Below, piece after piece: positions 11,810-55,150 of a stretch of 64,000 bases of DNA. The stretch's first letter is position 1, and each line of letters starts with the position of its first letter. The notes under the pieces are model-generated. The model worked only from the letters and a program-made list of their open reading frames with translations, did no database searches and was not told the DNA's origin. Where the stretch lies: the NCBI RefSeq assembly GCF_009746125.1, contig NZ_CP041352.1, forward strand, positions 4,262,436 through 4,326,435, in the 5' to 3' direction. This DNA is from Casimicrobium huifangae. Its GTDB lineage: Bacteria > Pseudomonadota > Gammaproteobacteria > Burkholderiales > Casimicrobiaceae. A program made the position numbers and the translations under genes.

Positions 11810-12106
11810 GCCACCAGCGCGCTTCGTGGCCGCGCGGGCCAGTCACTTTTCTTGCTTCGCCAAGAAAAGTAACCAAAAGAAGGCGACCCCAACGATTCGC
11901 CTGATTCCTGCGGTGCTCGCAACGCGCGGGACCCGCACAAATCGCCCGATGGCGCGCAAGTCTGCGCGCAGTGGGCTCATCGTGCGGGTCTACGACCGCG
12001 CGTCGCTCCGCTCCTCGGGGCGCATCCATGGGGCCCTGTCGAACTAACGCTTGATCGCTTCGCGATGGGGTTCACGGGAACCCGGATGCCAGCATCCGGG
12101 CTACAA
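11810..12106 (+). repeat. Structured dispersed repeat, copy A
   Basis: This ~297-bp repeat is related to copies B (12708-13006), C (54138-54403) and D (54851-55150). Hairpin H1 pairs 11845-11854 with 11861-11870 (loop CTTCGC). Nested helices follow: P1 11922-11929 with 11996-12003, P2 11930-11938 with 11982-11990 (GACCCGCAC/GTGCGGGTC), P3 11944-11947 with 11973-11976, and P4 11952-11958 with 11963-11969 (loop AGTC). A REP-like hairpin CCCGGATG/CATCCGGG at 12081-12100 ends the unit, pointing toward the gene at 12220. Open frames inside are spurious. Confidence 0.85.
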
Positions 12107-12219
12107 CGCTGCGAGCTGATTGGTCCGCATACAACGTGGCGCTTACAAAGTGTTGGAATTGACGTTTGAAGCCTCGGATGCGAGCATAGTCCGCATTAAA
12201 GTGATTAATTGCTCTGTCC

Positions 12220-12705
12220 ATGGACGTCGCCGCAATCGGCTCATTGTTCGGCAGCTTGAAGGCTGCAACGGATATTGCCAAGCTAATTCGAGAAAGCGGG
12301 ATCACGCTGGAGCGCGCTGAACTAAAGCTGAAGCTCGCGGAGTTGATGGAGGCACTCGCCGATGCAAAGATCGGCGCGGCTGAAGTGCAGCAACTGATCC
12401 TTGAACGCGATGCGGAAATTCGTACGCTGCGCGAGGAAGCTCGGGTGCGACGCGACCTTCGTTGGGAGCCGCCGTGTTACTTTTTGCCGGATGCCACACA
12501 GAGCAGACAAGAGCAGGCATACTGTCAAAAGTGCTACGACGGCGACAGTCGCCTAGTCCGACTGCACACTGACGGAAAGGGGCTCTACTCGTGCGTCGTC
12601 TGCAAACAGACCTACAAGACCCAAGAGCGTCAAGCGTCTGACGACGCCAAAGTTAGAGCCGCGAGGCAGTATCGGTCAGATAGCCCTTTCCCTCGAAACT
12701 GGTAG
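12220..12705 (+). CDS. Uncharacterised helical zinc-ribbon protein, flanked by inverted repeats
   Basis: This 161-aa protein has an amphipathic helical N-terminal half (about 1-78, MDVAAIGSLFGSLKAATDIA, then Glu/Lys/Leu-rich and likely coiled coil) and a C-terminal zinc ribbon with CQKC (102/105) and CVVC (125/128) around a YDGDSRLVRL segment. I recall similar orphan proteins in diverse proteobacterial genomes, with no known function. It lies alone between repeat copies A and B. B begins 2 nt after its stop. The gene and its 114-nt leader look lower in G+C than the surroundings, consistent with a moved-in cassette. Confidence 0.8.
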   Translation: MDVAAIGSLFGSLKAATDIAKLIRESGITLERAELKLKLAELMEALADAKIGAAEVQQLILERDAEIRTLREEARVRRDLRWEPPCYFLPDATQSRQEQAYCQKCYDGDSRLVRLHTDGKGLYSCVVCKQTYKTQERQASDDAKVRAARQYRSDSPFPRNW

Positions 12706-12707
12706 GT

Positions 12708-13006
12708 GTGTAGCCCGGATGCTCGCATCCGGGTTCCCGTGACCGCCATCGCGAAGCGATCAAGCTTCGGTTCGACGGGGTCCCCATGGATTCGCCCCGA
12801 GGAGCGGAGCAACGCGCGGTCGTAGACCCGCACCATGAGCCCACCGCGCGCAGACTTGCGCGCCATCGGGCGATTTGTGCGGGTCCCGCGCGTTGCGAGC
12901 ACCGGAGGGAAACAGCGAATCGCTGGGGTCGCCTTCTTTGGGTTACCTTTCTTGGCGAAGCAAGAAAGGTAACTGGCCCCGCGCGGCCACTGAGCGCGCT
13001 GGTGGC
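12708..13006 (-). repeat. Structured dispersed repeat, copy B (inverted relative to A)
   Basis: This copy lies in opposite orientation to copy A. H1 pairs 12942-12954 with 12961-12973 (13 bp). P1 is 12810-12819 with 12886-12895 (10 bp), P2 12825-12833 with 12877-12885, P3 12839-12842 with 12868-12871, and P4 12846-12852 with 12857-12863. The REP-like hairpin is at 12714-12733, pointing toward the zinc-ribbon gene. H1 of this copy differs from A in sequence but pairs fully. Confidence 0.85.
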
Positions 13007-13037
13007 GCCCGCAACCCGTGTCTGGAGGGCGACCATC

Positions 13038-13112
13038 CCCCTCTCCCTAACCCTCTCCCACAGGGGGAGAGGGGACCAGCTGCGTTCATGGTTCGACAAG
13101 CTCACCACGAAC
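13038..13112 (-). repeat. GAGAGGG-type repeat plus GAGCTTGTCGAA motif
   Basis: CCCTCTCCCTAACCCTCTCC followed by GGGGGAGAGGGG (13038-13074), then TTCGACAAGCTCACCACGAAC (about 13091-13111). The same two modules in the same relative order lie at 54031-54100, outside copy C. These are short palindromic intergenic repeats; no gene is seen from 13007 to 13121. Confidence 0.55.
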
Positions 13113-13121
13113 GGGGGTGAA

Positions 13122-15365
13122 CTACGCCCTCACGCAATCGACAAAATACCGCTCCACCCCCTTGTCGTGCTCCATCACCAGCCCGTGCACATCGGTGTCG
13201 AAGCCGGGCAACAGCGTGTTGAATTCGCGGGCGAACTTGAGGTAATCGACGATCGTCTTGTTGAAGCGCTCTCCGGGCAGCAGTAGCGGAATGCCTGGCG
13301 GGTAGGGCGTCACCAGCATGGCGGTCACGCGCCCTTGCAGCTCGTCCACCGGTACCCGGTCCACCTTGCGGTGCGCGAGATGCTCGAAGGCGTCGCTCGG
13401 CTTCATCGCTGGTTCCATCGGCGACAGATACATCTCGGTGGTCACCCGCGCGACGTCGTACTTGCGGTAGGCCTCATGGATGCGCTGCGCGAGGTCGCGC
13501 AGGCCCACGCGCTCGTACTGCGGGTGCGCATGCACGAACTCGGGCATCACCCGCCACAGCGGCTGGTTCTGGTCGTAGTCCATCTTGAACTGCTGCAGCT
13601 CGGTGACCAGTGAGTTCCAGCGGCCCTTGGTGATGCCGATGGTGAACATGACGAAGAAGCTATAGAGACCGGTCTTTTCGACGACGACGCCATGCTCGGC
13701 GAGATATTTGGTGACCAGCGACGCCGGAATACCCTGCTTCGAGAAACGGCCGTTGACGTCCAGCCCCGGTGTGACGATGGTCGCCTTGATCGGATCAAGC
13801 ATGTTGAAGCCGGACGCGATATTGCCGAAGCCGTGCCACTTGTCAGTCGGCTTCAGGAACCATTCCTCGCGCTTGCCGGAGCCGTTGGAGTCAAACTTGG
13901 TGGGCCCCCAGGTCTTGAACCACCAGTCCTTGCCCCATTCCTTATCCACCTTGGCCATCGCGCGGCGGAAGTCGAGCGCTTCGCTGATGCTCTCCTCCAC
14001 CAGTGCGCCACCGCCCGGCTGCTCCATCATCGCCGCCGCCACGTCGCAGCTGGCGATGATCGCGTACTGCGGGGAGGTGGAGGTGTGCATCAGGTACGCC
14101 TCGTTGAAGCGCGTGAAGTCGAGTTTCAGGTGCTCGGCGTCCTGCACCAGAATCTGCGACGCCTGCGACAACCCTGCCAGCAGCTTGTGCGTGCTCTGTG
14201 TGGCGTAAACCATCGAATCCTTGCAAGGTTTGCGGCCGGGGCCGATGGCGTGCATGTCCTGATAGAACGGGTGGAACGCCGCATGTGGCAGCCAGGCTTC
14301 GTCGAAGTGCAGGTTTTCGACGTACCCGGCCAGCTCTTTCTTGATCGTCTCGACGTTGTAGAGCACGCCGTCGTAGGTGCTCTGGGTGATCGTCATCACC
14401 CGTGGCTTGGCTTTCTTGTCCTTGACCAGCGGATGTGCGTTGATCTTTTTCTGGATCGATTCGCGCGAGAACTGGTCGCGCGTGATCGGCCCGATGATGC
14501 CGAGGTGATTGCGCGTCGGCTGCAGGAAGATCGGCACCGTGCCGGTCATCATGATCGCGTGCAGGATGCTCTTGTGGCAGTTGCGGTCGACCAGCACGAT
14601 GTCATCGCGCGCCACGTTGGCGTGCCACACCACCTTGTTCGACGTACTGGTGCCATTGGTCACGAAGAACAGATGATCGGCGCCAAAAATCCGTGCGGCA
14701 TTGCGCTCACTGGCGGCCACCGGGCCGGTGTGATCGAGCAGTTGACCCAGCTCTTCCACCGCATTGCAGACGTCGGCCCGCAGCATGTTCTCGCCAAAGA
14801 ACTGGTGGAACATTTGTCCCACCGGGCTCTTCAGAAACGCCACCCCACCGGAGTGCCCCGGGCAGTGCCAAGAGTACGAGCCGTCGCGTGCATAGTCCAC
14901 CAGCTCCTTGAAGAACGGCGGCGGCAGTGCTTTGAGGTACTTGGTGGACTCGCGCACGATCATCCGCGCGGTGAACTCCGGCGTGTCCTCGAACATGTGA
15001 ATGAAACCGTGCAGCTCCTTGAGAATCTCGTTCGGCAGATGCTGCGAGGTGCGCGTCTCACCGAACAGGAAGATCGGCACGTCGGCATTGCGCCGGCGGG
15101 TCGCCGCAATGAACTTGCGCAACTCGACAACCGCAGTGCTCTCGGCGCCGTCCTCGTTGATCTCCTCATCGTCGATCGACACCACAAAGGCCGAGGCCCG
15201 CGCCGCCTGATTGGCGACCATGCCGACGTCAACGTAGGTGAAGCCCCCGACCACTTCCATGCCTTCATCCTCCAGCGCCTTGGCAAGCGCGCGGATGCCA
15301 AGGCCAGACGCCGACTCGGCGCGCCAGTCTTCATCGATGATGACTACGGGGAAGCGAAATTTCAT
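13122..15365 (-). CDS. Orn/Lys/Arg decarboxylase, fold-type I PLP (arginine or lysine type)
   Basis: This 747-aa protein has an N-terminal response-regulator-like wing domain (about 1-130), a PLP domain with the cofactor lysine in STHKLLAG (Lys394), WHCPGHSGG and DEAWLPHAAFHPFY, and the C-terminal domain (MLVTPYPPGIPLLLPGE). This is the inducible/biosynthetic AdiA-LdcC-SpeC class. It decarboxylates a basic amino acid and consumes a proton. Substrate choice cannot be read reliably here; the length and sequence style fit arginine or lysine best. The product could feed polyamine synthesis or acid resistance. No antiporter gene is adjacent. Confidence 0.9.
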   Translation of the reverse strand: MKFRFPVVIIDEDWRAESASGLGIRALAKALEDEGMEVVGGFTYVDVGMVANQAARASAFVVSIDDEEINEDGAESTAVVELRKFIAATRRRNADVPIFLFGETRTSQHLPNEILKELHGFIHMFEDTPEFTARMIVRESTKYLKALPPPFFKELVDYARDGSYSWHCPGHSGGVAFLKSPVGQMFHQFFGENMLRADVCNAVEELGQLLDHTGPVAASERNAARIFGADHLFFVTNGTSTSNKVVWHANVARDDIVLVDRNCHKSILHAIMMTGTVPIFLQPTRNHLGIIGPITRDQFSRESIQKKINAHPLVKDKKAKPRVMTITQSTYDGVLYNVETIKKELAGYVENLHFDEAWLPHAAFHPFYQDMHAIGPGRKPCKDSMVYATQSTHKLLAGLSQASQILVQDAEHLKLDFTRFNEAYLMHTSTSPQYAIIASCDVAAAMMEQPGGGALVEESISEALDFRRAMAKVDKEWGKDWWFKTWGPTKFDSNGSGKREEWFLKPTDKWHGFGNIASGFNMLDPIKATIVTPGLDVNGRFSKQGIPASLVTKYLAEHGVVVEKTGLYSFFVMFTIGITKGRWNSLVTELQQFKMDYDQNQPLWRVMPEFVHAHPQYERVGLRDLAQRIHEAYRKYDVARVTTEMYLSPMEPAMKPSDAFEHLAHRKVDRVPVDELQGRVTAMLVTPYPPGIPLLLPGERFNKTIVDYLKFAREFNTLLPGFDTDVHGLVMEHDKGVERYFVDCVRA

Positions 15366-15553
15366 GCGGGTACCTTCAGAAGCGCCCGGATTGACACAAC
15401 GGCGTCAGCGTATGGGCGTGACCCCGAATGCTACCGAAACGAACTGTCCAACCCCACCGCGCGCGCGGTTTTACGCGGGTTTCAGCGATGCTGCGCCGCG
15501 ATATACTGCGGCCCCATTCACTCGGGCACGCCGCGCGTGCTTTCCCTGCCGTC

Positions 15554-18500
15554 ATGAAGGCTTCGCTGTGGCCCGTCTCGCTTGTCGGCCCACGCTCACT
15601 TGAGCGTCTCGCCCGCTTTCTGCGTCCTCACGCACTTCCTGCGACGGCGGCGTCCCCGGTCAGCGAAACGCGTCCTCGCACCATTGCCCAGAAGGCCTCG
15701 CACGTCGATGCTGCGGCGGACGACGGCGGCAGCCGCATCCGTGAAATTCCCTACAACTACACCAGCTTTTCCGACCGTGAGATCGTGATCCGCCTGCTCG
15801 GCGACGACGCCTGGGACGTGTTGCAGTCCTTGCGCGGGGAGCGCAAGACTGGTCGCAGCGCACGCATGCTGTTCGAGGTGCTTGGTGACATCTGGGTGGT
15901 GGAGCGCAACCCCTATCTGCAGGACGACATGATCGACAACCCGCGCCGCCGCGCGCAGTTGATCGAGGCTTTACGGCATCGCCTTGGTGAGGTGGAGAAA
16001 CGGCGGAATGTGGATGTTGCCGACGCTGACGGTGAGACACGCAAGGAGAAAGTCGGCGAACTGGTGACACGAGCCGCCAAGGCCGTCGATCGCTTTGAAG
16101 CGCAGTTCCGCGAGACCTACGACCTGCGCAAGCGGGTGCTGAAGGTGCTCGGCCGCATCACCCACAAGGACAACATCACCTTTGACGGCCTCGCCCGTGT
16201 GTCGCACGTGACCGATGCGACTGACTGGCGTGTGGAGTACCCCTTCGTGGTGCTGCATCCCGACAGCGAGGACGAGGTTTTTGGCCTGGTCAAAGGCTGC
16301 ATCGAGCTCGGCCTCACCATCATTCCGCGTGGCGGCGGTACCGGTTACACCGGCGGCGCGATTCCGCTGTCGCGGCTGTCGGCGGTGATCAACACCGAGA
16401 AGCTGGAGACGCTGTCCCCGGTGCGTTTTGAGCCGCTGCCCGGTGGCGCCAACAACGGCGAGCCATACGGCGTCATCGAATGCGAAGCGGGCGTCGTCAC
16501 GCGGCGCGCGATGGAAGCGGCCGAACACGCCGGGCTGGTCTGGGCCTGCGACCCGACCAGCGCCGACGCCAGTTGCATTGGCGGCAACATTGCCATGAAC
16601 GCCGGCGGCAAGAAGGCGGTGCTGTGGGGCACCGCGCTCGACAATCTGGTGCAGTGGCGCATGGTCACCCCCGACGGCGAGTGGCTCGAAGTCACCCGCA
16701 TGGATCACAACGTCGGCAAGATTCACGACGCCAATCACGCGACCTTTCACCTGCAGTACCTGGACGAGAAGCGGCGTCCGCTGCGAGAAGAAACGCTGAT
16801 CATCCCCGGCCCGAGTTTCCGCAAGATCGGACTCGGCAAGGACGTCACCGACAAGTTCCTCTCCGGTCTGCCCGGTGTGCAGAAGGAAGGTTGCGACGGC
16901 CTGATCACCTGGTCGAAGTGGGTGCTGCACAAGATGCCGCCGCACACACGCACCGTGTGCATGGAGTTCTTCGGTCAGGTGCGCGATTCGGTGCCGTCAA
17001 TCGTGGAGGTGAAAGACTACCTCGATGCACTGCCCAAGACCGGCGATGCGCGGGTGATGCTCTCAGGGCTCGAACATCTTGACGAGCGCTATGTCCGCGC
17101 CGTTGGCTATGCCACCAAAGCCAAGCGCCATGGCCGGCCGAAGATGGTGCTGATTGGCGACATCGTCGGTGACGATGAAGACGCTGTCGCACGCGCCGCG
17201 TCCGAAGTGGTGCGTATCTGCAATGCCCGCGGCGGTGAGGGCTTCGTTGCCGTCAGCGGCGAAATGCGCAAGAAATTCTGGCTTGACCGCGCGCGCACGG
17301 CCGCGATCTCGAAGCACACCAATGCCTTCAAGCTGAACGAGGACGTGGTCATCCCGCTGCCGCGCATGGGCGACTATTGCGACGGCATTGAGCGCATCAA
17401 CATCGAGCTGTCGATCCGGAACAAGCTTGCGCTGTGCGACCAGTTGCTCGGCTTCTTCGCGGGGCCGATGCCGCAGCATCGTTACGAGGAATACGGCGTT
17501 TCCGCCGAACTGCTGGCTGACAAGGTAACCGAGGCGCGTGCACTGGTTGCATCAGTCCGCACCAAATGGGCTGCGCTGCTGAACGGCGTTGGGCCTTCCT
17601 CCATCTGCAATACTGAGCCGTTCATCCAGGATCCGTCGTTCGCCGATGAGGCGGGGGCGCTGTCGCTGTTCCGCCAGTTGCAATCGCACGAGATTCGGGT
17701 GAGCTGGCGCGCCGAGATCAAGTCGCCACTGGAAGACATCTTTGCCGGCGAGGCGCTGAAGCCGATCGTCGAGCGGCTGCGGGCCATTCATCAGGAGGTC
17801 CTGCGTGGCCGGGTCTGGGTGGCGCTGCACATGCACGCTGGTGACGGCAATGTGCACACCAACATTCCGGTCAATAGCGACAACTACGAGATGCTGCAGG
17901 AGGCCAACGCCGCCGTCGCGCGCATCATGCGGCTTGCACGCGCGCTTGATGGGGTGATTTCGGGCGAGCATGGCATCGGCCTCACCAAGCTGGAGTTCCT
18001 CACCGACGACGAGATCACGCCGTTCCAGCGCTACAAGAACAAGGTTGACCCCGAGGGCCGGTTCAACAAGGGCAAGCTGTTGCCCGGTGGCGATCTGCGT
18101 TACGCGTACACCCCCTCGTTCGGCCTGCTCGGCAGCGAGTCGCTGATTCTGGAGGCGAGCGACATCGGCGCCATCAGCGATTCGGTGAAGGACTGCCTGC
18201 GTTGTGGCAAGTGCAAGCCGGTCTGCGCGACCCATGTGCCGCGTGCCAACCTGCTGTACAGCCCACGCAACAAGATCCTCGCGACCGGCCTGCTGGTCGA
18301 GGCTTTCCTGTACGAGGAGCAGACCCGGCGCGGCATCTCGCTCAGGCACTGGGATGAGCTGGCGGACGTGGCAGACCACTGCACGGTGTGCCACAAATGC
18401 GTGAACCCGTGCCCGGTGGACATCGACTTCGGCGATGTGTCGATGGCGATGCGCAATCTGCTGCGCAAGGAAGGCAAGAAGAAGTTCAATCCCGGTAACG

Positions 18501-42756: not shown

Positions 42757-43431
42757 CTAGCCGGAGTCAGCCAAAAACGCCGTCGCGGCCACTACGGCTT
42801 CGGTGCGGTTGTTGACGTTCAGCGTGCGGAAGATTGCCAGCAGGTGAACCTTGATGGTGCCTTCCGACAGGGCCAGTTCGCGAGCGATCAGTTTGTTTGG
42901 CATGCCTTTGGCGAGCAGCCGCAACACATCGAGTTGCCGCCCGGTAAGGGCGTCGATCCCCGGGTTTAGTGTGTCTTTCCCTGCCTCGCGGTTCGACGTC
43001 ACCGCAGCATCGGCCGACAGCAATCGCGCCGGAGCGTAGGTGCCACCGGCCAGCACCAATCGCAGCGCCTGCAAAATCACGGCGGCGGAGTCGGTCTTCG
43101 GGATGAATCCTGCAGCGCCAGCAGCCAGCAGCTCACGCACGGTGGTTGGGTTCTCGGCACCGGACATCACCACCACGCGGGTCGCCGGATTGGCAGCGAT
43201 GAGTGTCCGGAACCACGCAATGCCGGCGACCCCCGGCATGCCCCAATCAATGAGGGCCACCTGAACCGGCGCACCTGCAAGCGAACGACCCGCGAGCGCT
43301 GCCTCGGTGCTGGCAGCGTCATCTGCTGTGAACAGATCCAGCGCATCGGCCAGTGGCCGCAATGCATGCTGCAAAGCGAGCCGTACCAGCTCGTGGTCGT
43401 CGGCGATCAGTAGCGATATGCTGTCTGGCAT
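42757..43431 (-). CDS. NarL/LuxR-type response regulator
   Basis: From the ATG at 43431 this is 224 aa: a receiver domain with acidic pocket ADDHE, phospho-acceptor Asp62 (LIDWGMPG) and Lys in IPKTDS, and a C-terminal LuxR helix-turn-helix (LTGRQLDVLRLLAKGMPNKL, SEGTIKVHL). It is divergent from the first of two histidine kinases; its ATG overlaps the first possible ATG of that kinase as CATG. The frame to 43578 reads into the kinase gene and lacks family support. Confidence 0.88.
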   Translation of the reverse strand: MPDSISLLIADDHELVRLALQHALRPLADALDLFTADDAASTEAALAGRSLAGAPVQVALIDWGMPGVAGIAWFRTLIAANPATRVVVMSGAENPTTVRELLAAGAAGFIPKTDSAAVILQALRLVLAGGTYAPARLLSADAAVTSNREAGKDTLNPGIDALTGRQLDVLRLLAKGMPNKLIARELALSEGTIKVHLLAIFRTLNVNNRTEAVVAATAFLADSG

Positions 43432-43492
43432 GGAGAGGGATTGGGTGACTGGGCAACCGGGCAGCGCACGCAACGACGACGCAGCCGCCCCA

Positions 43493-45835
43493 GTGTTTTC
43501 GAGTGTAGCGCGGTCGCAGATCGAGGCGCTGGATCGCGCGGTGTGGCGCACCCGGTTCCGAGACCCGCTGGAGCTCAAGCAGGCGGCCGACGCGCTGGCG
43601 GCCAGTGCGCCTGCCGATAGCCTGGCCGCCGCTCTGGCCAGCTTTCATCACGCCTGGCACCGCCTTGCCCTGTTCGATCAGACTGGTGCCGGCGAGCTAC
43701 ACGCCCAAGCGCTCGCTGCATTCGAAAGGCACCACTACACGCCCGGCATTGACCGGCTGCGGGTTGTCAAGGCGCTCATCCTGCTGCGCGCCGGCGATAG
43801 CGGCGCTGCGCTTGCCACCCTCGATGAACCGACCAGATCAAACGAGGAAGAACCACTCGCCGAAGCGCGCTACGTTGCGCTCAACATTCGAGCGCTGTGC
43901 TACGGCGATCTCGGTGACCTGGACAACGCGATGCGCAGCTTTTCGGCCGCGCTGACGGCAGCCCGGCAAACGGGTATCCCCGTTTTCGCTGCCAACGCGC
44001 TCGGCAACTTCGGTGGTTTCCACGCCGACATCCACAATTTCGAAGATGCGGAGCAGATGTGCCGCGAGGCTTTTGCGCTCGCCGATGTGGCCGGTGCCCG
44101 TGCGCCGTGGGTCACGTCGGGGACCAACTGGATGCTTTCGCTCTTCTTTCTCGGGCGCCCTGCCGAAGCGCGGGATGTGGCCTTGCAGCTACTGGCGCGC
44201 GAAGCGTGGTTGTTGCCCGCCAAGCGTTCGGCCTACTTCACCAAGTTCGCAGCAGTCTTCCTGCATGCCGGAGATTTGGCGGAGGCGGCAGCGTTTCTCG
44301 ATCGTGCCGAAGTTGTTGCCGACCCCGGCGTGACGCTGCGTACCGTGGAGTGGTATTGGGTTTGTGCCGAAGTGCGCAACGCGCAGGGTCGTCATGCCGA
44401 AGCATTCGAGCTCTGCCGGCAGGCAATCGAATCCGGGTCGGACTTCGACCAGGTATCACTGCCGACTGACCTGATGCGCCTGTACAACGCCGCCACACAG
44501 GCGGCCGAGGCGTTGGGAGACTTCCGCTCGGCGCTGCACTTCAAGAAGGAGGCGTTCGCCAAATATGAGCTGCTGGTCGGCCAGAGTGCGCGCGCCAAAC
44601 GACTGGCGCTCCAGATGGAATACGAAGTGCAGCTTGCTGAGTGGCAGCGCGATGAAGCGCTCGCCGAACAGCACGCCGCCGAAGAGGAGCGTGGCCGTCT
44701 GGCCGACCTCAATCGGGCGCTGGCGGCGATCAACACCGATAAAAGCCGCTTCCTGGCCGCAGCAAGCCATGATCTGAGGCAGCCTGTGCACGCTATCGGC
44801 CTGTTCGCCGACACGCTGGTCGAGCAGGTGGCGGCCGGCCAAGCGCGCGACATGGTGACACGCATCCAGCAAAGCATGCGCACCATGAACGGCATGCTGT
44901 CGGAGTTGCTCGACATTTCCAGCCTCAACGCCGGGATCACCCATGCTGCCGTGACTGCAATGCCCGTCACTGATTTGCTACTGCATATTGACAACGAATT
45001 CGGGTCTGTAGCGCGTGATCGGGGGCTGAATTTGCGACTGGCGGCAGCAGACCTTTGGGTACAAAGCGACCCGGCGCTGCTGAAGCGGATTCTGCAAAAT
45101 CTCGTCGCCAATGCGCTGGCCTATACCAAACAGGGTGGTGTGCTGGTCAGTGCCCGTGGTCGTGGCGAGATGGTGTTGCTCGAAGTGTGGGACACCGGCA
45201 TCGGCATTGATGCGACGCATTTGCCACGCATCTTCGATGAGTTCTACCAGATCGGTAATACGTCGCGCGACCGGCGCAAGGGGATGGGGCTGGGGCTCGC
45301 CATCGTGCGTCGGCTCGCCGACTTGCTTGCGCATCCGCTGGAGGTGTCATCGCGACCTGGCAAGGGAACGCGATTCCGCCTGCAACTGCCACGCGTGGCG
45401 ATGGCGAGCCTGCCGGAAAATCGTCCGATTGCCAGCCTCGCCGACTTGACTGGTAAGGTAGCGCTGATCATCGATGACGAACCTGATGTACGCGACAGCA
45501 TGGCAGCTGCTTTTGCCGCTCGCGGCTGCAGCGTCATCGTCGCCGGTAGCGCAGCAGCAGCCCTGGCCCAGCTGGAGGACGTGACGCTTCGCCCCGACTT
45601 TGCGGTGATTGACTACCGGCTCGAGTCAGAAACCGGGCTGGTTGCGTTATCGGCGTTGCGCGCCAGGCTTGAAACGTGGCTACCAGCGTTGATCGTCACG
45701 GGCGATACCCTCGCGACCGATTTGACGCAGATTGACGCGGCGGGTGAGGCCTGGCTGATCAAACCGGTTTCGGCTGATGCGCTGCAACTTGCAGTGACGC
45801 GACTGCTGTCGGCATCTTCGGCGGCGGCGAGCTGA
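43493..45835 (+). CDS. Soluble TPR-type hybrid histidine kinase
   Basis: The start is ambiguous. GTG at 43493 gives 780 aa and lines up with the start of the paralogue at 45839; an ATG at 43430 gives 801 aa but overlaps the divergent regulator's start. The N-terminal ~390 residues are TPR-like helices with no TM, followed by a coiled coil (QRDEALAEQHAAEEERGRL). HisKA follows with His426 in AASHDLRQPVHAIG, then HATPase_c (NLVANALAYTKQGG, WDTGIGI, GMGLGLAIVRRL). A C-terminal receiver has Asp707 (VIDYRLES). It is a cytoplasmic sensor kinase. Confidence 0.88.
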   Translation: MFSSVARSQIEALDRAVWRTRFRDPLELKQAADALAASAPADSLAAALASFHHAWHRLALFDQTGAGELHAQALAAFERHHYTPGIDRLRVVKALILLRAGDSGAALATLDEPTRSNEEEPLAEARYVALNIRALCYGDLGDLDNAMRSFSAALTAARQTGIPVFAANALGNFGGFHADIHNFEDAEQMCREAFALADVAGARAPWVTSGTNWMLSLFFLGRPAEARDVALQLLAREAWLLPAKRSAYFTKFAAVFLHAGDLAEAAAFLDRAEVVADPGVTLRTVEWYWVCAEVRNAQGRHAEAFELCRQAIESGSDFDQVSLPTDLMRLYNAATQAAEALGDFRSALHFKKEAFAKYELLVGQSARAKRLALQMEYEVQLAEWQRDEALAEQHAAEEERGRLADLNRALAAINTDKSRFLAAASHDLRQPVHAIGLFADTLVEQVAAGQARDMVTRIQQSMRTMNGMLSELLDISSLNAGITHAAVTAMPVTDLLLHIDNEFGSVARDRGLNLRLAAADLWVQSDPALLKRILQNLVANALAYTKQGGVLVSARGRGEMVLLEVWDTGIGIDATHLPRIFDEFYQIGNTSRDRRKGMGLGLAIVRRLADLLAHPLEVSSRPGKGTRFRLQLPRVAMASLPENRPIASLADLTGKVALIIDDEPDVRDSMAAAFAARGCSVIVAGSAAAALAQLEDVTLRPDFAVIDYRLESETGLVALSALRARLETWLPALIVTGDTLATDLTQIDAAGEAWLIKPVSADALQLAVTRLLSASSAAAS

Positions 45836-45838
45836 GGT

Positions 45839-47797
45839 ATGAACGTCACGCACGCAACTCTGCACGAACGCCTGGCGGCGCTCGATCAGCAGGCGTGGCT
45901 GGCGCGCTTCCGCAGCCGCAATGAGTTGCGTCGACTGGTCGACGACATGCTGCGCCTTGCTCCCCCTGGCTCAGCGGCAGAGGCGAAGGGGCACTATCAC
46001 TGTGCGGTATGGGCGTGGCAGGCCAATGAGCGGGAACAATCGCGTACGGCACGCGCTCGGGCGCTCAGCATCTTCGAGCAACACGGCGACATTGCCGGCA
46101 TCGCCAACTGCCGCGATCTGGAGGCACTTGCCGAGCGGCTTGCCGGCAATCTCCAGCACGCCGCCGAACTCTACAAAATTAACCGCGATCTCCCCGAGTC
46201 GGCGCGCGCTGCGGCCGAGCATTGCATGACCTGCAGCGGCGAGGGTGCCGTACTGTTGGCCACGGGACAACACGACGCTTGCCAGCGCGTGTGGTCCATC
46301 GCGGTGTCGCTCGCGCAACGGGCCAGCAATCCCGGGCTTGAGGTATCTACCCTGTGCAATCTGGGTGCCTGGAATATTGCTGTTTGCAATTTTGAAGATG
46401 GTCGGCAGCTCAGTCAACGGGCATTCGATCTTGCCGAGCAGGTGTTTGATCTGGCGCATCCGGAGGAACTGAACAGCGGCTGGTTCAACAGTGGCATGAA
46501 CCTGCTGGTGGCCCTCGACTGCCTGTCGCGCCAAGCCGAGGCGATGGCAGTGGCGTCGCGGTTGCTGGAAATGGAAGCCCATTTCCCGTCGTCGCAACGG
46601 GCGAATTACTTCGTGACCTTTGCCAGTGCCATGTTGCATGCGGGCAATGTCGACCAAGCCGGACACTTTTTGCAGAGAAGCATCGCCGCCGGCGGCGTGA
46701 CACCAGACTTCGCGCTGGAACAATCAATCGTGCAGGCAGAAATATGGAATCGGCTTGGCGAATACGGCCGGACGCAATCGCTGTGCGCGAAATTGCATGA
46801 CGATGCGTCGGTGCGGCGTAACGATGTGTCCGCGCACGACCTGATGCGTTTTCACAATGCTGCGACTTTCGCCAACGAAGCGCTGGGCGAATTTCAGGTG
46901 GCCCTCGCGCATCAAAAGATCGCTTTCGACAAATATGAAGAACTGGTGGGGAAGAGTGCCCGTGCACGCCGCCTTACACTCGAGATTCAGACCGAGTTGC
47001 AGCGCACCGAATGGCAGCGCGATCAGGCCTTGAAGCAGAGGCGTGCGGCCGAACTCGAGCAAACGCGGCTGGCTGAGCTCAACGCAGCGCTGGCCGCAGC
47101 GAACACCGCCAAGAGCGGGTTCCTTGCTGCGGCCAGCCACGATCTGCGGCAACCTGCTCACGCCGTCAGTCTGCTCGCCGACACACTGGCGTCGCAGCTA
47201 AACGGTGCGCCACAACTTGAGCTGGTGTCACGCATTCAGCACAGCACAGCGGCGCTGCAGCGACTGCTGAGTGAATTGCTGGACATATCGGAGCTGGATG
47301 CCGGCGCCACGATTGCACACCCACGCGCAATTCCGGTCAGTGACTTGCTCGTTGAAGTTGACGCCGAGTTCCGCGAACTGGCGGTCAGTCGCAATCTGCA
47401 ATTGCGTCTTGCCGCGACCGACGCCTGGGTGGTCAGCGATACCGGGCATCTGCGGCGCATCATGCGCAGCTTGCTCACCAACGCGCTCAACTATACGGAA
47501 CGCGGTGGTGTGCTGGTCGCCGCGCGCACGCGGAAAGGTGCGGTGCTTCTGGAAGTGTGGGACACTGGCGTTGGCATCGCTGCCGAGCACTTGCCGCATC
47601 TCTTCGATGCGTTCTATCAAGTTGGCAATCGCGCCCGTGACCGTAGAAAGGGTCTCGGTCTTGGCTTGGCCGTGGCCAGGCGGTTGGCCGGGTTGCTCGG
47701 CCATCCGCTGGAGGTTCATTCACGGCCGGGCAGGGGAACCGTGGTGAGACTCACTTTGCCGGGAGCGACGCGGCTCATCGACTCGCAGGCTACGTGA
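45839..47797 (+). CDS. Soluble TPR-type histidine kinase, paralogue without receiver
   Basis: This 652-aa protein is a full-length relative of the preceding kinase: TPR-like N-terminus, coiled coil, HisKA His434 in AASHDLRQPAHAVS and HATPase_c (LLTNALNYTERGG, WDTGVGI, GLGLGLAVARRL). It ends after the ATPase, so the receiver is absent. It starts 3 nt after the first kinase's stop. The pair probably arose by tandem duplication. Both may phosphorylate the divergent NarL-type regulator. Confidence 0.88.
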   Translation: MNVTHATLHERLAALDQQAWLARFRSRNELRRLVDDMLRLAPPGSAAEAKGHYHCAVWAWQANEREQSRTARARALSIFEQHGDIAGIANCRDLEALAERLAGNLQHAAELYKINRDLPESARAAAEHCMTCSGEGAVLLATGQHDACQRVWSIAVSLAQRASNPGLEVSTLCNLGAWNIAVCNFEDGRQLSQRAFDLAEQVFDLAHPEELNSGWFNSGMNLLVALDCLSRQAEAMAVASRLLEMEAHFPSSQRANYFVTFASAMLHAGNVDQAGHFLQRSIAAGGVTPDFALEQSIVQAEIWNRLGEYGRTQSLCAKLHDDASVRRNDVSAHDLMRFHNAATFANEALGEFQVALAHQKIAFDKYEELVGKSARARRLTLEIQTELQRTEWQRDQALKQRRAAELEQTRLAELNAALAAANTAKSGFLAAASHDLRQPAHAVSLLADTLASQLNGAPQLELVSRIQHSTAALQRLLSELLDISELDAGATIAHPRAIPVSDLLVEVDAEFRELAVSRNLQLRLAATDAWVVSDTGHLRRIMRSLLTNALNYTERGGVLVAARTRKGAVLLEVWDTGVGIAAEHLPHLFDAFYQVGNRARDRRKGLGLGLAVARRLAGLLGHPLEVHSRPGRGTVVRLTLPGATRLIDSQAT

Positions 47798-47801
47798 CCA
47801 C

Positions 47802-49772: not shown

Positions 49773-49778
49773 GTTCCG

Positions 49779-50057: not shown

Positions 50058-50204
50058 GTGTGTAGACGTTGTCAGGAAATGAAGGGGTCGTCGCAGTGCG
50101 ACGGGCGTCGGGGCAACGCGGCCATCTGCCTCAAGCGGGGGCTTGTCGAAGCAGACAACCGCGTTGTAGTGCCCACAGACAAAACGAAGTCTAGGCAGCG
50201 CCAT

Positions 50205-50435
50205 TCACGCTGACCATTCAACGGACGGCTTAATGCGTTTGGTGTAGATCGAAGCCTGCAGTGACTGCCCTGAGCGCGGCCGCACCTGTGTGACGGCGCA
50301 ACGCAGTGCACCCGAGCCCAAGGCGACCGCGACGTTGATGTCTGCGCGTGTCAGCACGTTGCCTACGAGATACGTGCTACCTGTGTACGTCGCGCTGACA
50401 ACGTCCAGCTCAATGAGTTCGTAGAGCGCCTGCAA
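50205..50435 (-). pseudogene. Possible glutathione S-transferase C-terminal remnant
   Basis: The 76-aa frame contains YLVGNVLTRADINVAVAL, which resembles the GST C-terminal-domain pattern fLvGd-xTlADi. No thioredoxin-like N-terminal half is found upstream, and the following residues do not continue the fold, so this would be a decayed fragment. It may also be chance. The rest of 50058-50650 shows no convincing gene. Confidence 0.25.
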
Positions 50436-50650
50436 TTGGGCGGCGCGGGATCAAGCCATCGCTGATGGGGTGTTTTCAGTGCGGGAACACCACGCTAGTA
50501 GCCGCATTGCACGGCCACCTCCATTGCAACGCACCCATCGGCAGTGACGCGCAACGACTGCGTTGGCGCTGTGGTCTGCGTCGGCGAACATGGCTGCGAT
50601 GTGCGCCAACGCCATTAACTTGGCTTGCCGGTCGGGGCGAAGCCACTCCA

Positions 50651-50683
50651 ACAAAACAAAAGGGCCGCAGATCGCGGCCCTTT
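50651..50683 (-). terminator. Rho-independent terminator of the purine operon
   Basis: On the minus strand AAAGGGCCGC and GCGGCCCTTT form a 10-bp stem with a 5-nt loop, followed by TGTTTTGT. It lies about 90 nt after the stop of the BMP-type binding protein, the last gene of the operon. Confidence 0.85.
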
Positions 50684-50773
50684 GCAACGGATTGCCGTCG
50701 CGCGCATCAGTCGAAGCGGGAGCGATTGCCGGTTGTGCCGGGGTTCCTCTCGCGTTCGACCTTCCGCTTCTTG

Positions 50774-51925
50774 TTACTTCCCGTCACCCGGCACTTTGCC
50801 TTCCACGCCCTTGACGTAGAACTTGATGCCGCCGAGGAATTTGTCGTCAGCCTTGGCGTCCTTGGCGAGCACTTCCTTGCCGTCCTGACCGACGATCGGG
50901 CCGGTCCACGGGTGGAAGGTGCCTGCTTTGAGGCCGGCTTTGACTTCTTCGAGCTTCTTCTTGGCGTCTTCCGGAACGTCGGCCGCGACCGAGACGAAGT
51001 CAATCGCGCCTTCCTTCACGCCCCACCAGCTCTGGCCGGTTTCCCACTTGCCGTCGAGCACATCACGCACGGCCTTGATGTAATAGGGGCCCCAGTTGAT
51101 CACCGCCGAGCCAAGGTGCGCCTTCGGGCCGTAGGCCGTCATGTCGCTGTCCCAGCCGAAGGCGCGCTTGCCCATCTTTTCGGCCGTCTGCAGCACGGCG
51201 GAGGAGTCGGTGTTCTGCATCAGCACGTCGGCGCCACCGTTGATCAGCGCGGTGGCGGCTTCGGTTTCTTTCGGTGGGTTGAACCATTCGTTGACCCAGA
51301 CCACCTTGGTCTTGATCTTCGGGTTGACGCTCTGCGCACCGAGCGTGAAGCTGTTGATGTTGCGGATGACTTCCGGGATCGGAATCGAGCCGACCACACC
51401 GAGCGTATTGGTCTTGGTCATCTTGCCAGCAACGACGCCGGCCATGTAGGCGCCCTCATAGGTGCGGCTGTCGTAGGTGCGCATGTTGGGCGCGGTTTTA
51501 TAGCCGGTGGCGTGTTCGAACTTCACGCCCGCGTTGTCGCCGGCGACTTTCAGCATGGGCTCCATGTAGCCGAACGTGGTGCCGAAGATGACCTTGTTGC
51601 CTTGACCGACGAGATCGCGGAACACACGCTCGGCGTCGGCGCTTTCCGGCACCTTCTCGACAAATGTCTTGGCATCGACCTTGTCACCGAATTCCTTCTC
51701 GACCGCCTTGCGGCCATTGTCGTGTGCAAAGGTCCAGCCGCCATCGCCCACCGGGCCGACGTAGGCGAAGGCCACTTTCAGCGGCTCGGCCTTCTTCGGC
51801 GCTTCGGCGGCAGGCGCCGGCTTGGCGGCCTCGGCCTTGGGTTCTTCCTTTTTGCCGCAGCCGGCCAGTGCGGCGACCAGTGCGGCTGCCACGCCGGCGG
51901 CGAGCAGGGTGCGTTTGCTATTCAT
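50774..51925 (-). CDS. BMP family ABC substrate-binding lipoprotein (purine/nucleoside type)
   Basis: From the ATG at 51925 this is 383 aa; GAGGG precedes it. A lipoprotein signal (LVAALAGC, Cys23) and an Ala/Pro/Lys linker are followed by a BMP/PnrA-like domain (VAFAYVGPVGDGGWTFAHD, GTTFGYMEP, GADVLMQNTDSSA). BMP proteins bind nucleosides or purines. It is the last gene of the transporter set and lies beside xanthine dehydrogenase genes, which points to a purine ligand. Confidence 0.93.
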   Translation of the reverse strand: MNSKRTLLAAGVAAALVAALAGCGKKEEPKAEAAKPAPAAEAPKKAEPLKVAFAYVGPVGDGGWTFAHDNGRKAVEKEFGDKVDAKTFVEKVPESADAERVFRDLVGQGNKVIFGTTFGYMEPMLKVAGDNAGVKFEHATGYKTAPNMRTYDSRTYEGAYMAGVVAGKMTKTNTLGVVGSIPIPEVIRNINSFTLGAQSVNPKIKTKVVWVNEWFNPPKETEAATALINGGADVLMQNTDSSAVLQTAEKMGKRAFGWDSDMTAYGPKAHLGSAVINWGPYYIKAVRDVLDGKWETGQSWWGVKEGAIDFVSVAADVPEDAKKKLEEVKAGLKAGTFHPWTGPIVGQDGKEVLAKDAKADDKFLGGIKFYVKGVEGKVPGDGK

Positions 51926-52003
51926 TGGGTTTCCCTCTTGGTGTGAGATTTCAGTTGGAAAGACGGACGACTCGAAACAAAAACGGTGGCACAAGCCACA
52001 ATT

Positions 52004-52924
52004 CTAGGAGCCCGGATAGAACGGCTTGCCGATTGAAGCCGGCATGTTGATGCGAATCCAGGTTGGGTTACGCGAAATCAGTGCCAGCACCACGATGGTG
52101 GCCACGTAGGGGGCCATCGACAGAAACTGACTGGGTATGTCCACCCCTTGGCTCTGCAGGTGAAACTGCATCATGGTGACACCGCCGAACAGATAGGCGC
52201 CAAACAGCACCCGCAACGGCCGCCAGGTGGCGAACGTGGTCAGCGCCAGCGCGATCCAGCCCTTGCCCGCGACCATGCCTTCTACCCAGAGCGGCGTGTA
52301 AATCACCGCCAGATAAGCGCCCGCCAACCCGCACATGGCCCCGCCAAAAAGAACCGCCAGCAACCGGATGCGTCGTACCGGATAGCCCAGCGCGTGCGCC
52401 GATTCGGGGCTTTCACCCACCGAGCGCAGCACCAAACCGGCGCGTGTGCGGTAGAGGAACCAGATGATGCCGACTGTCAATACGATGGCGAAGTAAACCA
52501 TCGGATGCTGCTTGAACAGGGCCGGCCCGATGAAGGGAATATCGGCCAGACCCGGCACCGCAAAGTGCGGCCGTTCCGGCAGCTTTTCCTGCACGTAGCG
52601 GGTGCCAACGAACGCCGAAAAACCGGCACCGAACAGCGAGAGCGCAAGGCCGGTGGCGTACTGATTGGTGTTGAGCCAGATGACCAGCAGCGCAAAGAGT
52701 CCGGCCAGCAAGGCGCCAGCGCCCATGCCGGCAGCAAACCCCAGCCAGTCGTTGCCGGTATGCACGACCGTGGCGAAGCCGGCGATGGCGGCGCAGAGCA
52801 TCATGCCCTCGGCGCCGAGGTTGACGATGCCGGATTTCTCGTTGATCAGCAGGCCGAGTGCGGCGATGGCAAGCACGGTGCCCGCATTGAGCGTGGCCGC
52901 AATCAGGAGCGCGTACTGTTCCAT
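52004..52924 (-). CDS. BMP-type ABC transporter permease (second subunit)
   Basis: From the ATG at 52924 this is 306 aa with about 8-9 TM helices and the BPD_transp_2 signature (GLLINEKSGIVNLGAEGMML, GLAGAYLAVIYTPLWVEGM). The start overlaps the stop of the other permease as TAATG. It is paired with that permease as in nucleoside importers. The frame further upstream reads into the preceding gene. Confidence 0.93.
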   Translation of the reverse strand: MEQYALLIAATLNAGTVLAIAALGLLINEKSGIVNLGAEGMMLCAAIAGFATVVHTGNDWLGFAAGMGAGALLAGLFALLVIWLNTNQYATGLALSLFGAGFSAFVGTRYVQEKLPERPHFAVPGLADIPFIGPALFKQHPMVYFAIVLTVGIIWFLYRTRAGLVLRSVGESPESAHALGYPVRRIRLLAVLFGGAMCGLAGAYLAVIYTPLWVEGMVAGKGWIALALTTFATWRPLRVLFGAYLFGGVTMMQFHLQSQGVDIPSQFLSMAPYVATIVVLALISRNPTWIRINMPASIGKPFYPGS

Positions 52925-54003
52925 TATTTCGCTCCTCCGGCTTTGGCGGCAACGGTGCGCCTGATGCGATAAGCGATCAGTGTGTCGCAAGCCAGCAGCG
53001 TGAACAGCAGCAGGCCCTGGAACACGCCGGTCAATGACTTCGGCAAACCAAGCCGCGATTGCGCGAGCTCACCGCCGATGTAGAACATGCTCATCAGTAC
53101 CGCCGAGAACACAATGCCAACCGGATGCAGGCGGCCGACGAACGCGACGATGATCGCGGCAAAGCCATAGCCCGCCGGCACATAGGGCGTGAGTTGCCCG
53201 ATCGGTCCGGCCACTTCGATCGCGCCGGCCAGCCCAGCCATGCCACCAGACACCAGCAGCGCCGTCCACAGTGCGCGGCGTGACGAGAACCCGGCGTACT
53301 TCGCCGCATGCGGCGCCAGCCCACCCACCTGCAACTGAAAGCCGATGTAGGTGCGAAACATGTAAATCCACATGCCCGCCACGCCGAACAGCGCCACAAG
53401 CAGGCCCACGTTCACCCGCGAGCCGTCCATCAAGCGCGGAATCTGCGTCACTTTCTCGAACGTCTTGGTCTGCGGAAAGTTGTAGCCGTTCGGGTCTTTC
53501 CACGGCCCGTAGACGAGATAAGCCAGCACCAGTTCGGCCACGTAGACCAGCATCAGGCTGACCAGAATTTCACTGGCATTGAAGCGGTCACGCAGCAGCG
53601 CCACCAGCGCCGCCCACAACATGCCACCCAGCACGCCCGCCAGCACCACCAGCGGGATGATCCACGGCCCGGTTGATTTGTCCGCCAGCAACGCCACGCC
53701 ACCGGCAGCAATCGCGCCGACCACGAACTGCCCTTCGGCACCGATGTTCCACACATTGGCGCGATAGCAGACGGCAAGCCCCAGCGCAATGAGCAACAGC
53801 GGCGTTGCCTTCACCGCCAGCTCCGACAACGCGTAGGCGGATTTGATCGGTTCCCAGAAGAACACGGTCAATCCCTTGACCGGATCCTTGCCCATCAGCA
53901 GGAAGATGCCGATGCCGATGATCACCGTGATCGCCAGCGCCAAGAGCGGCGAGGCGATGCCCCAGAATTTTGACGCCTGAGGGCGGGCTTCGAGTTTCAG
54001 CAT
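52924..54003 (-). CDS. BMP-type ABC transporter permease (first subunit)
   Basis: This 359-aa protein has about 9-10 TM helices (ALAITVIIGIGIFLLMG, NVWNIGAEGQFVVGAIAAGG, YGFAAIIVAFVGRLHPVGIV). It is the larger BPD_transp_2 permease typical of nucleoside importers. The ATPase gene of the same system lies 1.16 kb upstream, separated by a repeat-flanked insert; in most genomes these genes are adjacent. Confidence 0.93.
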   Translation of the reverse strand: MLKLEARPQASKFWGIASPLLALAITVIIGIGIFLLMGKDPVKGLTVFFWEPIKSAYALSELAVKATPLLLIALGLAVCYRANVWNIGAEGQFVVGAIAAGGVALLADKSTGPWIIPLVVLAGVLGGMLWAALVALLRDRFNASEILVSLMLVYVAELVLAYLVYGPWKDPNGYNFPQTKTFEKVTQIPRLMDGSRVNVGLLVALFGVAGMWIYMFRTYIGFQLQVGGLAPHAAKYAGFSSRRALWTALLVSGGMAGLAGAIEVAGPIGQLTPYVPAGYGFAAIIVAFVGRLHPVGIVFSAVLMSMFYIGGELAQSRLGLPKSLTGVFQGLLLFTLLACDTLIAYRIRRTVAAKAGGAK

Positions 54004-54030
54004 GAGGGCATCCTCCGCCCGACCCGATCA

Positions 54031-54100
54031 TGGTGAGCTTGTCGAACCGCGAACGCTTTTAGTCCCCTCTCCCTTGAGGGGAGAGGGCTAGGGAGAGGGT
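54031..54100 (+). repeat. GAGCTTGTCGAA motif plus GAGAGGG-type repeat
   Basis: GTGAGCTTGTCGAACCGCGA is followed by CCCCTCTCCC ... GGGGAGAGGG and GCTAGGGAGAGGGT. These are the same modules, in the same order and orientation relative to the structured repeat, as at 13038-13112. Confidence 0.55.
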
Positions 54101-54137
54101 GACGGTGACGGTCGGGTTCCGAACACGAGCAATGAGT

Positions 54138-54403
54138 ACCGCCAGCGCGCTTTGTGGCCGCGCGGGGCCAGTCCCTTTCTTTGCTTCGCCAAAGAAAGGA
54201 ACCAAAGAAAGGCGACCCCGACGATTCGCCTGTTTCCTGCGGTGCTCGCGTCAGGCGGGCGTCGCAGAAATCGCCCGAAAGTTGCGCTGACGCGCAACCG
54301 GTGGACTCACACTGCGCCGCTTGGACCGCCTGCCGCTGCGCTCCTCGGGGCGAATCCACGGGGACCCGTTCGAATCGATGCTTGATCGCTTCGCGATGGG
54401 TCG
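54138..54403 (+). repeat. Structured dispersed repeat, copy C
   Basis: H1 pairs 54174-54183 with 54190-54199 (CCTTTCTTTG/CAAAGAAAGG). P1 is 54252-54258 with 54326-54332 (CAGGCGG/CCGCCTG), P2 54259-54267 with 54312-54320 (one mismatch in 9), and P4 54281-54287 with 54292-54298 (GTTGCGC/GCGCAAC). Sequences of H1, P1, P2 and P4 differ from copy A yet pair. P3 is weak and the terminal REP-like hairpin is missing. Confidence 0.85.
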
Positions 54404-54438
54404 CAAGGACGCGGTGGCGAGGGACGACGTTGCGACTG

Positions 54439-54891
54439 CTACTTGCACTGCACATCGCCGCTCACCTTCGGAAAAGCTTCTGTTCGTCCGGTCGTCGGCA
54501 AAAGGCCCAACGCTGGTCTCCCGAGTGCGTTAACGTTAACGAACCACAACCCCCGGGAAAGTCTGATTTCACTCAGGCCGTTGCTGCACACTTCTCGCGC
54601 TTTATTCAATACGTATTGCTCCATTTCCTCGAAGCTATTTACGAGCGGCGACCCTTGGAACTCGATGTAAGTGCGGTCATCTGGCATCTTGCCAACCAGA
54701 AAACCGAAGGGCTGCCTTGCTCCGTCTTGTTGCTGTGAGTACGGTACTGGAGCTACCCCGACGGACGCGCAAGCCGACAATGTCAACGTCAGAATTGCGC
54801 CACAGCAACGACCGAGAATCAGTATCGCCTTTTGACCAACGCCTGCTGTGGTGTAGTCCAGATGCCCAAATCCGGGTTTGCTGACGCTCAT
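54439..54891 (-). CDS. Putative lipoprotein between inverted repeat copies
   Basis: From the ATG at 54891 this is 150 aa. A hydrophobic stretch ends in the lipobox LSAC (AILTLTLSACAS). The mature part has FGFLVGKMPDDRTYIEFQG and a conserved-looking MEQYVLNKAREVCSNG segment. No family recognised. Roughly the first 17 codons lie inside repeat copy D, so the true start is uncertain: either this ATG was supplied by the repeat or a non-ATG start is used nearer the signal peptide. The gene looks lower in G+C than the transporter genes it separates. Confidence 0.6.
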   Translation of the reverse strand: MSVSKPGFGHLDYTTAGVGQKAILILGRCCGAILTLTLSACASVGVAPVPYSQQQDGARQPFGFLVGKMPDDRTYIEFQGSPLVNSFEEMEQYVLNKAREVCSNGLSEIRLSRGLWFVNVNALGRPALGLLPTTGRTEAFPKVSGDVQCK

Positions 54892-55150
54892 CGCGAAGCA
54901 ATCATTTGTTGCGTTGGTTCGCCCCTTTACCCCGCCCCGAAGCGCGCAGTGTTGCGCGGTCCAAGCCGAAAACCATGAGCCCACTGGTTGCGCGTCAGCG
55001 CAACTTTCGGGCGATTTGTTTTCGGCCCGCGCAACGCGAGCACTGGAGGAAATCGGCGGGGTGCAGGGGCTAGCCTTTTGGTTACTTTTGGGCAATGCCA
55101 AAAGTAACTCGGCCGCCGGGCCGAGACCCGGCTTGCTGGCACCAGCGAGC
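54851..55150 (-). repeat. Structured dispersed repeat, copy D (inverted relative to C)
   Basis: H1 pairs 55081-55091 with 55098-55108 (11 bp, GTTACTTTTGG/CCAAAAGTAAC). P1 is 54952-54959 with 55027-55034, P2 54965-54973 with 55018-55026 (GCCGAAAAC/GTTTTCGGC, 9 of 9), P3 54979-54982 with 55009-55012, and P4 54987-54993 with 54998-55004. P2 shares almost no sequence with copies A and C but pairs perfectly. A degenerate REP-like end lies at about 54855-54876. Confidence 0.85.

Follow-up and report, generated by a model that had tools for sequence, protein, structure and literature searches.

Results

Two inverted pairs of structured arms, each with a gene inside

We analysed a 64,000-nucleotide stretch of the Casimicrobium huifangae chromosome (contig NZ_CP041352.1, positions 4,262,436 to 4,326,435), called the window below, in which a sequence-only reading had pointed to four dispersed repeat copies of about 300 bp, A to D. 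Re-reading the sequence bore out both their places and their stems: the H1 stems have 10, 13, 10 and 11 bp in A, B, C and D, each with a 6-nt loop, and helix P2 is GACCCGCAC/GTGCGGGTC in A and B, GCGTCGCAG/CTGCGCCGC in C and GCCGAAAAC/GTTTTCGGC in D. What that reading had missed is that A/B and C/D are inverted pairs, each with a gene inside. Its proposal of a structured RNA or single-stranded DNA (ssDNA) element is upheld in part: the structure is supported, but the copies are no independent RNA, each being one arm of a paired, cargo-bearing element linked to repetitive extragenic palindromes (REPs). Likewise, the copies do share a fold, but the statement that they share it rather than a sequence goes too far: B is 92%, C 79% and D, a diverged copy, 67% identical to A. 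The features of the two pairs, in window coordinates, are listed here.

11759..11809, + strand: outer module of left arm A, of the GTTCGCCCTGAGCTTGTCGAAGGG... type; outer repeats come in several alternative types (read from the sequence; this and other modules occur at other arms)
11810..12106, + strand: arm A, left arm of pair 1
11845..11870, + strand: H1 hairpin of arm A, 10 bp, loop CTTCGC
11913..12018, + strand: core hairpin P1-P2-P3-P4 of arm A, with a 5-nt bulge between P1 and P2 and an AAATC/TCAT internal loop
12081..12104, − strand: inner REP of arm A, GTAG toward the cargo
12220..12705, + strand: cargo of pair 1, an open reading frame (ORF) of 161 aa without a Pfam family
12708..13006, − strand: arm B, right arm of pair 1
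12710..12733, + strand: inner REP of arm B, GTAG toward the cargo
12797..12902, − strand: core hairpin of arm B
52924..54003, − strand: gene flanking the C/D site, 359 aa, with pair 2 directly upstream of its start codon
54005..54137, + strand: outer repeats of left arm C, beginning near the insertion edge (by comparison with relatives)
54138..54403, + strand: arm C, left arm of pair 2, without a recognisable inner REP
54242..54348, + strand: core hairpin of arm C
54439..54891, − strand: cargo of pair 2, an ORF of 150 aa from its ATG, without a Pfam family, its start overlapping the inner end of arm D
54851..55150, − strand: arm D, right arm of pair 2
54853..54876, + strand: inner REP of arm D, degenerate, with 4 mismatches
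54937..55043, − strand: core hairpin of arm D
55161..56714, − strand: gene flanking the C/D site, 517 aa, with pair 2 directly past its stop codon

The same geometry recurs throughout the host genome, which carries eight pairs, each a + copy followed by a − copy with the 5' ends outward (848630/849436, 1359952/1361439, 1421601/1422921, 3247948/3249094, 3704168/3705095, 3752859/3754102, 4274245/4275144, which is A/B, and 4316574/4317287, which is C/D), and one lone arm at 685595. Loci are labelled by L-numbers and genomes of the genus by G-numbers, the host, a single contig of 4.47 Mb, being G000. To these we added a profile scan of 80 loci, mostly of the genus, with a few others of the order. 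They had been picked as matches to copy A, so lone-arm rates in this set are biased. The scan gave 143 hits, including 49 neighbouring "+ then −" pairs. Among neighbouring hits covering at least 100 model positions, 42 were oriented + −, six − −, three + + and none − +. Pairs are present in ten of 16 congeners (nine at first, and then G010).

The fold also turns up in other families of the order when these are searched with a model built from the genus. Under strict filters that lose weak matches, model R1 matched six of 300 sampled order genomes, namely the host, G010 and four genomes of three other families. Outside the genus, six of eight loci carry inverted + − pairs and two carry copies in one direction; three of the six pairs lie about 150 bp apart without a gene (L244, L245 and L246), and the others are 398, 631 and 2328 bp apart. 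A cargo-free pair of this kind may be an older or ancestral form resembling a miniature inverted-repeat transposable element (MITE). Named genomes gave 33 stretches, all of them metagenome-assembled and labelled Burkholderiales, Betaproteobacteria, Proteobacteria or Pseudomonadota, and many are the same contigs as our genus genomes. The H1 region alone is more widespread than the whole arm. We set aside carriage of the element on phages or plasmids: there was no phage match, two plasmid records matched the H1 region only, and viral contigs lacked the exact core pattern. At five loci of G004 (L152, L153, L154, L156 and L164), arms are repeated in one direction, two to five in a row; these rows may come from unequal recombination or from assembly.

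The fold of the arm core is constrained as a whole

The core of each arm is one long hairpin, made of P1 (9 bp), a 5-nt bulge, P2 (9 bp), the AAATC/TCAT loop, P3 and P4. We aligned 52 core sequences, including A to D, and counted P1 to P3, leaving out P4 because the alignment misplaces it. Paired cells amounted to 93.5%, compared to 70.9% after shuffling, and cells changed on both sides numbered 221, compared to 68; none of 500 shuffles reached either value. Sliding the partner by one to three columns reduced pairing to 35-44%. Further pair types showed no excess (35 against 33.4, a value of 35 being reached by 124 of 500 shuffles). With a second null, which preserves the tree and each column's count of changes and was scored on consensus folds of the very sequences tested, we counted 263 double-changed cells against 55±18 in 72 main-type sequences and 112 against 19±9 in 29 sequences of two other core types, again with none of 500 controls reaching the observed count. 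In 81 of 113 arms H1 forms a perfect stem of 9 bp or longer, and 30 different 5' strands occur.

A pair-by-pair test of the kind used in R-scape, to which the sequence-only reading had looked for significant covariation, did not deliver it: of 24 structure pairs in each set, none reached E<0.05 in one and a single pair did in the other. Single pairs are not significant because stem changes come as a few blocks; the stems form a small set of block alleles. In addition, the core hairpins of L101 and of the right arm of L116 are chimeric, joining the 5' half of one stem allele to the 3' half of another with the stem broken, and mark recombination inside arms. Constraint on the fold is supported for the structure as a whole: in the 52- and the 72-sequence sets, core helices keep their pairing through changes on both sides to a degree that none of the 500 controls reached. 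The stronger wording, that the compensatory changes are hard to explain without selection, goes too far, given the block changes, the chimeric arms and a possible contribution of hairpin-templated correction. Such correction can alter both sides of a stem together. We consider selection on the fold the best reading of the whole structure, to which hairpin-templated correction could contribute.

Mismatch events on the copy strand comprise 39 A-C and 16 G-T. Folding of the opposite strand, in the direction leading outward from the cargo, would produce such an A-C excess, and we take it only as a hint. The sequence-only reading had recognised no named RNA family, and there was no Rfam match in the arms, either over the whole window at curated thresholds, which is how C and D were covered, or in 11700-13100 under permissive settings, where two weak matches both lay outside the arms. 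A stand-alone structured RNA was set aside since the copies are inverted pairs with cargo; a role at the RNA level is kept as a rival explanation. Arms within a pair are more alike than random ones (0.779 against 0.713, p 0.0006). We also rejected matching stems as a specificity code of the pair, the arms of one pair often being of different stem types.

The cargo consists of single, low-GC genes of many kinds

Across the collected loci, 45 pairs hold at least 200 bp of cargo, and one ORF usually fills most of it. Cargo GC is 0.523 (n=45), compared to 0.609 in the flanks (n=73). The 44 ORFs compared are 86-364 aa long, save two longer ones of 444 and 612 aa. In 18 of them we found a Pfam match at E≤0.001, counting L091, L137 and L149, which lie below Pfam's own cut-off; the other 26 had none, and both cargos of the window are among those without a Pfam family. 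The families found include an Mrr-type restriction enzyme (L087), a CAP12-type Toll/interleukin-1 receptor (TIR) protein (L147), NACHT (L129), DUF3800 (L133), ankyrin (L144), a macro domain (L089), a methyltransferase (L088), GrpB (L107) and an S41 peptidase (L151), these and others each once. Cargo L145 is a RelA/SpoT protein that also matches PADLOC PDC-S33 at 3e-121. Several cargos resemble one-gene phage defences. None of the 39 ORFs scanned singly is a transposase; the other five of the 44 are DUF3800, ankyrin, RelA_SpoT, TIR and bPH_2 proteins.

A match 37% identical to the A/B cargo protein lies on an Enterobacter plasmid. Only one pair of cargo genes is related, L118 and L126, whose proteins are 70% identical and which lie at two different sites; this gene occurs in two of the 17 genus genomes, both times between arms. 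Among the 38 pairs with a mechanically called ORF on each side, 17 lie between convergent ORFs.

Shared sites carry unrelated cargo

With the arms masked, we identified 17 sites whose flanks correspond in two to six genomes, with identities of about 72-94%. (Site 0 of these may consist of two sites with a tandem array joining them.) At ten sites two or more genomes have at least 200 bp of cargo, and at the remaining seven fewer than two do. Of 30 same-site cargo comparisons at these ten sites, 29 gave no blastn match at E 1e-3, and the exception, between L132 and L152, is 35 bp long and lies in a stretch resembling the integron site attI. At six of the ten, a direct match of both flanks links two cargo-bearing loci. 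L135 and L140 are alike in the flank and in the left arm up to about 50 nt short of its inner end; the cargo between the arms shows no such likeness, which starts again where the right arm begins on its cargo side. L132 and L145 likewise align from flank to arm on both sides, up to about 50 nt from the cargo, and differ in cargo. Unrelated genes thus occupy the same slot in different genomes. Orthologous arms in which only the cargo is replaced suit these two comparisons well, and we rejected them as a rule, the arms being mostly homogenised within genomes.

The C/D pair is most simply an insertion

The C/D pair has the stop codon of one gene on one side and the start codon of its neighbour on the other. 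The junction is empty in G013, G010, G004, G001, G006 and G002, the two genes being adjacent without an arm, and coordinates indicate the same for G014. A different short inverted repeat occupies it in G005, G015 and G009, and G007 has an arm pair without cargo; among the rows listed, G003, G008, G012 and G016 gave no reading. The presence and absence of the pair at one junction mean that, most simply, the whole pair is an insertion, at a spot that attracts other palindromic elements. The repeats in G005, G015 and G009 (L170, L171 and L172) raise the separate possibility that the junction is a hotspot for unrelated inverted repeats between co-directional genes. At the A/B site of G011, 148 nt separate the two flanks, and a remnant of an arm is left there.

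REPs, RAYT genes and integron sites

Each arm is a mosaic of hairpins, comprising an outer repeat, H1, the covarying P1-P4 and a ATCGCTTCGCGAT hairpin; many arms also have a REP where they meet the cargo. The inner-end REPs (GTAGCCCGGATGC..GCATCCGGG) point their GTAG toward the cargo and were recognised at 48 of 90 ends within the loose limit of 7 mismatches, 17 of the 48 being exact. Similar REPs stand beside host genes for REP-associated tyrosine transposases (RAYTs): copies of a closely similar REP, which share its TTCCCGTGA tail, flank L024, while L027 is flanked by the REP type of arm L163 and L026 by a REP resembling the GTGGGTTTCAACCCAC outer module. The inner-end REP also occurs elsewhere in G000, G006 and G009 at the ordinary spacing of REPINs (REP doublets forming hairpins), and no core was found in G006 or G009. 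We rejected a single RAYT group as the driver, its presence not following that of the arms.

The host also has a true chromosomal integron, in which attC sites accompany an integrase encoded at 694122-695216. All eight pairs are more than 150 kb away from this integrase; one lone arm is 8 kb away. In this integron (694122-697980, L180), a 781-bp unit occurs twice in tandem with 100% identity, one cassette being duplicated. An integron integrase scored over the cut-off in eight of 17 genus genomes, five of 11 with arms and three of six others (one of the three with an internal stop), and we rejected it as the driver, as its presence does not follow the arms. By eye, at the ends, we saw attI-like and attC-like sites in cargos L116, L125 and L132, which a script scan did not pick out; L152 has a weaker attI-like stretch only, and the remaining cargos showed no such site by eye, no full attC model having been run. 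Foreign integron cassettes therefore seem to be among the captured cargo. As a general answer, integron cassettes were rejected, with attC-like sites in three cargos only and no integrase at the pairs.

Elsewhere in the window, the adjacent ORFs at 43307-45835 and 45839-47797 share stretches of 71-76% identity within 44696-47739 and are probably tandem paralogues.

Discussion

We propose that the paired arms form a composite, non-autonomous element, in which two structured arms of about 300 nt stand inverted around one small foreign gene, and that this element is a docking site of the REP or bacterial interspersed mosaic element (BIME) type that exchanges its cargo by recombination. We give this reading a probability of roughly 0.55. 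The pair would have come into the chromosome through the action of an HUH (RAYT-type) enzyme, as a giant element of the REP/BIME type, and an enzyme of this class, reading ssDNA hairpins, would lead to the fold being kept rather than the sequence. Once placed, the pair would act as a docking site whose cargo is swapped by recombination through the arms; the simplest route would be homologous recombination with incoming DNA bearing another arm-gene-arm unit. An inverted layout would avoid the deletion that direct repeats would permit.

Several observations weigh against this proposal. At four of the ten two-cargo sites, the direct match is confined to one flank or the sites are linked via a third genome, and outer modules often differ between shared sites. 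Same-site arms are hardly more alike than other-site arms (weighted difference 0.024), and the nearest neighbour of an arm is in the same genome for 61 of 113 arms and at a shared site for eight; with such similarity within genomes, replacement of the whole element, or gene conversion, is not separable from cargo exchange at most sites. Most relatives are represented by fragmented assemblies, in which repeats can cause misjoins. At the C/D junction of G011 the arms are 24 nt apart, but the contig starts inside the left arm and the site is split over two contigs. Inspection of the C/D site by eye established no target-site duplication, and the A/B site is unreadable as empty or filled because its flanks lie apart in most relatives. 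Nor is any enzyme tied to the arms: a RAYT like L024 has no match in the arm-bearing G005 and G015 and does have matches in G002, G006, G009 and G014, where no core was found. Finally, 42 of the 90 inner ends have no recognisable REP, even at the limit of 7 mismatches.

We considered three other explanations. That an unrecognised hairpin-reading recombinase or transposase acts directly on the P1-P4/H1 arms as its recombination sites, cutting and joining cargo at the inner arm edge as in a dispersed integron, would suit several features: the fold is kept and the sequence is not, as in folded recombination sites, the cargos are single-ORF cassettes like those of integrons, and the 39 A-C against 16 G-T mismatches would follow from G-U type pairing in a folded opposite strand. 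Similarity between cargo-bearing loci also stops near the inner arm edge, but ordinary recombination predicts an edge there too. We found no candidate enzyme; neither the integron integrase (5/11 arm-bearing genomes, 3/6 others) nor the RAYT tracks the arms. We think this explanation unlikely. Somewhat more doubtful still is cargo exchange by RAYT (TnpA-REP) strand transfer at the cargo-facing GTAG REPs, with the rest of the arm a bystander. The E. coli enzyme, as described in the excerpted text of PMC8266576, recognises single-stranded REP, cleaves at an adjacent CT and can join strands, and the REPs at 48 of the 90 cargo edges, 17 of them exact, and beside host RAYT genes fit such a reaction. 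The 42 ends without one do not, however, the RAYT distribution does not match the arms, and the conserved P1-P4 hairpin would be left without a role.

An RNA-level function seems to us the least probable. Here the arms would be terminators, insulators or stabilisers around acquired genes, the covariation would stem from RNA folding, and pairs would persist by shielding their cargo from neighbours. The stable folds and the 17 of 38 pairs between convergent ORFs are consistent with it, and so is the placement of REPs mainly between unidirectional and convergent ORFs in the excerpts of PMC3733652; it leaves unexplained both the unrelated genes at the same sites and the symmetric inverted layout with its GTAG REPs. 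A bolder version of the docking-site proposal would be a distributed gene-cassette system, in which inverted, fold-conserved ssDNA sockets at many fixed loci are served by a dedicated hairpin-reading recombinase, neither IntI nor Xer, that swaps single foreign genes (restriction, TIR, RelA/SpoT, NACHT and others). We offer this as a tentative possibility, short of even odds.

Parts of the docking-site element have clear relatives. REPs, BIMEs, REPINs and RAYTs (PMC3733652, PMC8266576, PMC3116915, PMC2817692) share with our element GTAG-tagged hairpins, stem-loop mosaics, intergenic placement and a RAYT with similar REPs in the genome. A REP has 20-40 bp, however, and a REPIN about 100 bp with GTAG outward, whereas the present arms have about 300 nt, turn GTAG inward to the cargo, contain a covarying multi-helix core and stand as inverted pairs around a foreign gene. 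Long terminal inverted repeats made of degenerate GTAG units and other stem-loops are known around RAYT genes (PMC3733652). These TIRtrons/TIRYT resemble our pairs in having long inverted repeats around one gene, some composed of a degenerate GTAG unit with stem-loops and some forming repeat families; unlike TIRtrons, which hold a RAYT-like gene, the pairs enclose genes that, where examined, encode no transposase and vary by site.

Other likenesses concern the cargo and its slot. Integron cassettes are small, low-GC single genes, many of unknown function and some defence-like, and their sites are kept by fold. The present cargos and arms resemble them in being single small low-GC genes at fold-kept sites; PMC8352920 is one paper on such cassettes. 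They differ in having arms on both sides, inverted, one gene per dispersed site and no integrase at the pairs. The pdif sites are short Xer sites of 28 bp. Acinetobacter pdif (dif) modules (PMC12907356, PMC13141974) are likewise small discrete units, set between paired recombination sites and moved from one location to another. In contrast to those mainly plasmid-borne modules with their short sites, our arms are structured, 300 nt long and chromosomal. In Neisseria, minimal mobile elements place different genes in one chromosomal slot between conserved flanks, with exchange via the flanking genes. Our shared sites are similar in this respect, different genes occupying one slot between conserved flanking genes; we know of no dedicated structured arms in the Neisseria elements. 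A search of the open-licence PMC literature at the level of titles and abstract starts found no description of cargo-bearing paired arms.

If the docking-site reading is true, these bacteria would have a further route for keeping and exchanging single chromosomal genes without an encoded transposase, and REP-type mosaic elements would gain a part in gene exchange. Because 26 of the 44 cargos lack a Pfam family and several are defence-like, the arms would serve as a search handle for new small genes. The arms themselves are a natural set of folded sequences for testing selection on ssDNA structure.

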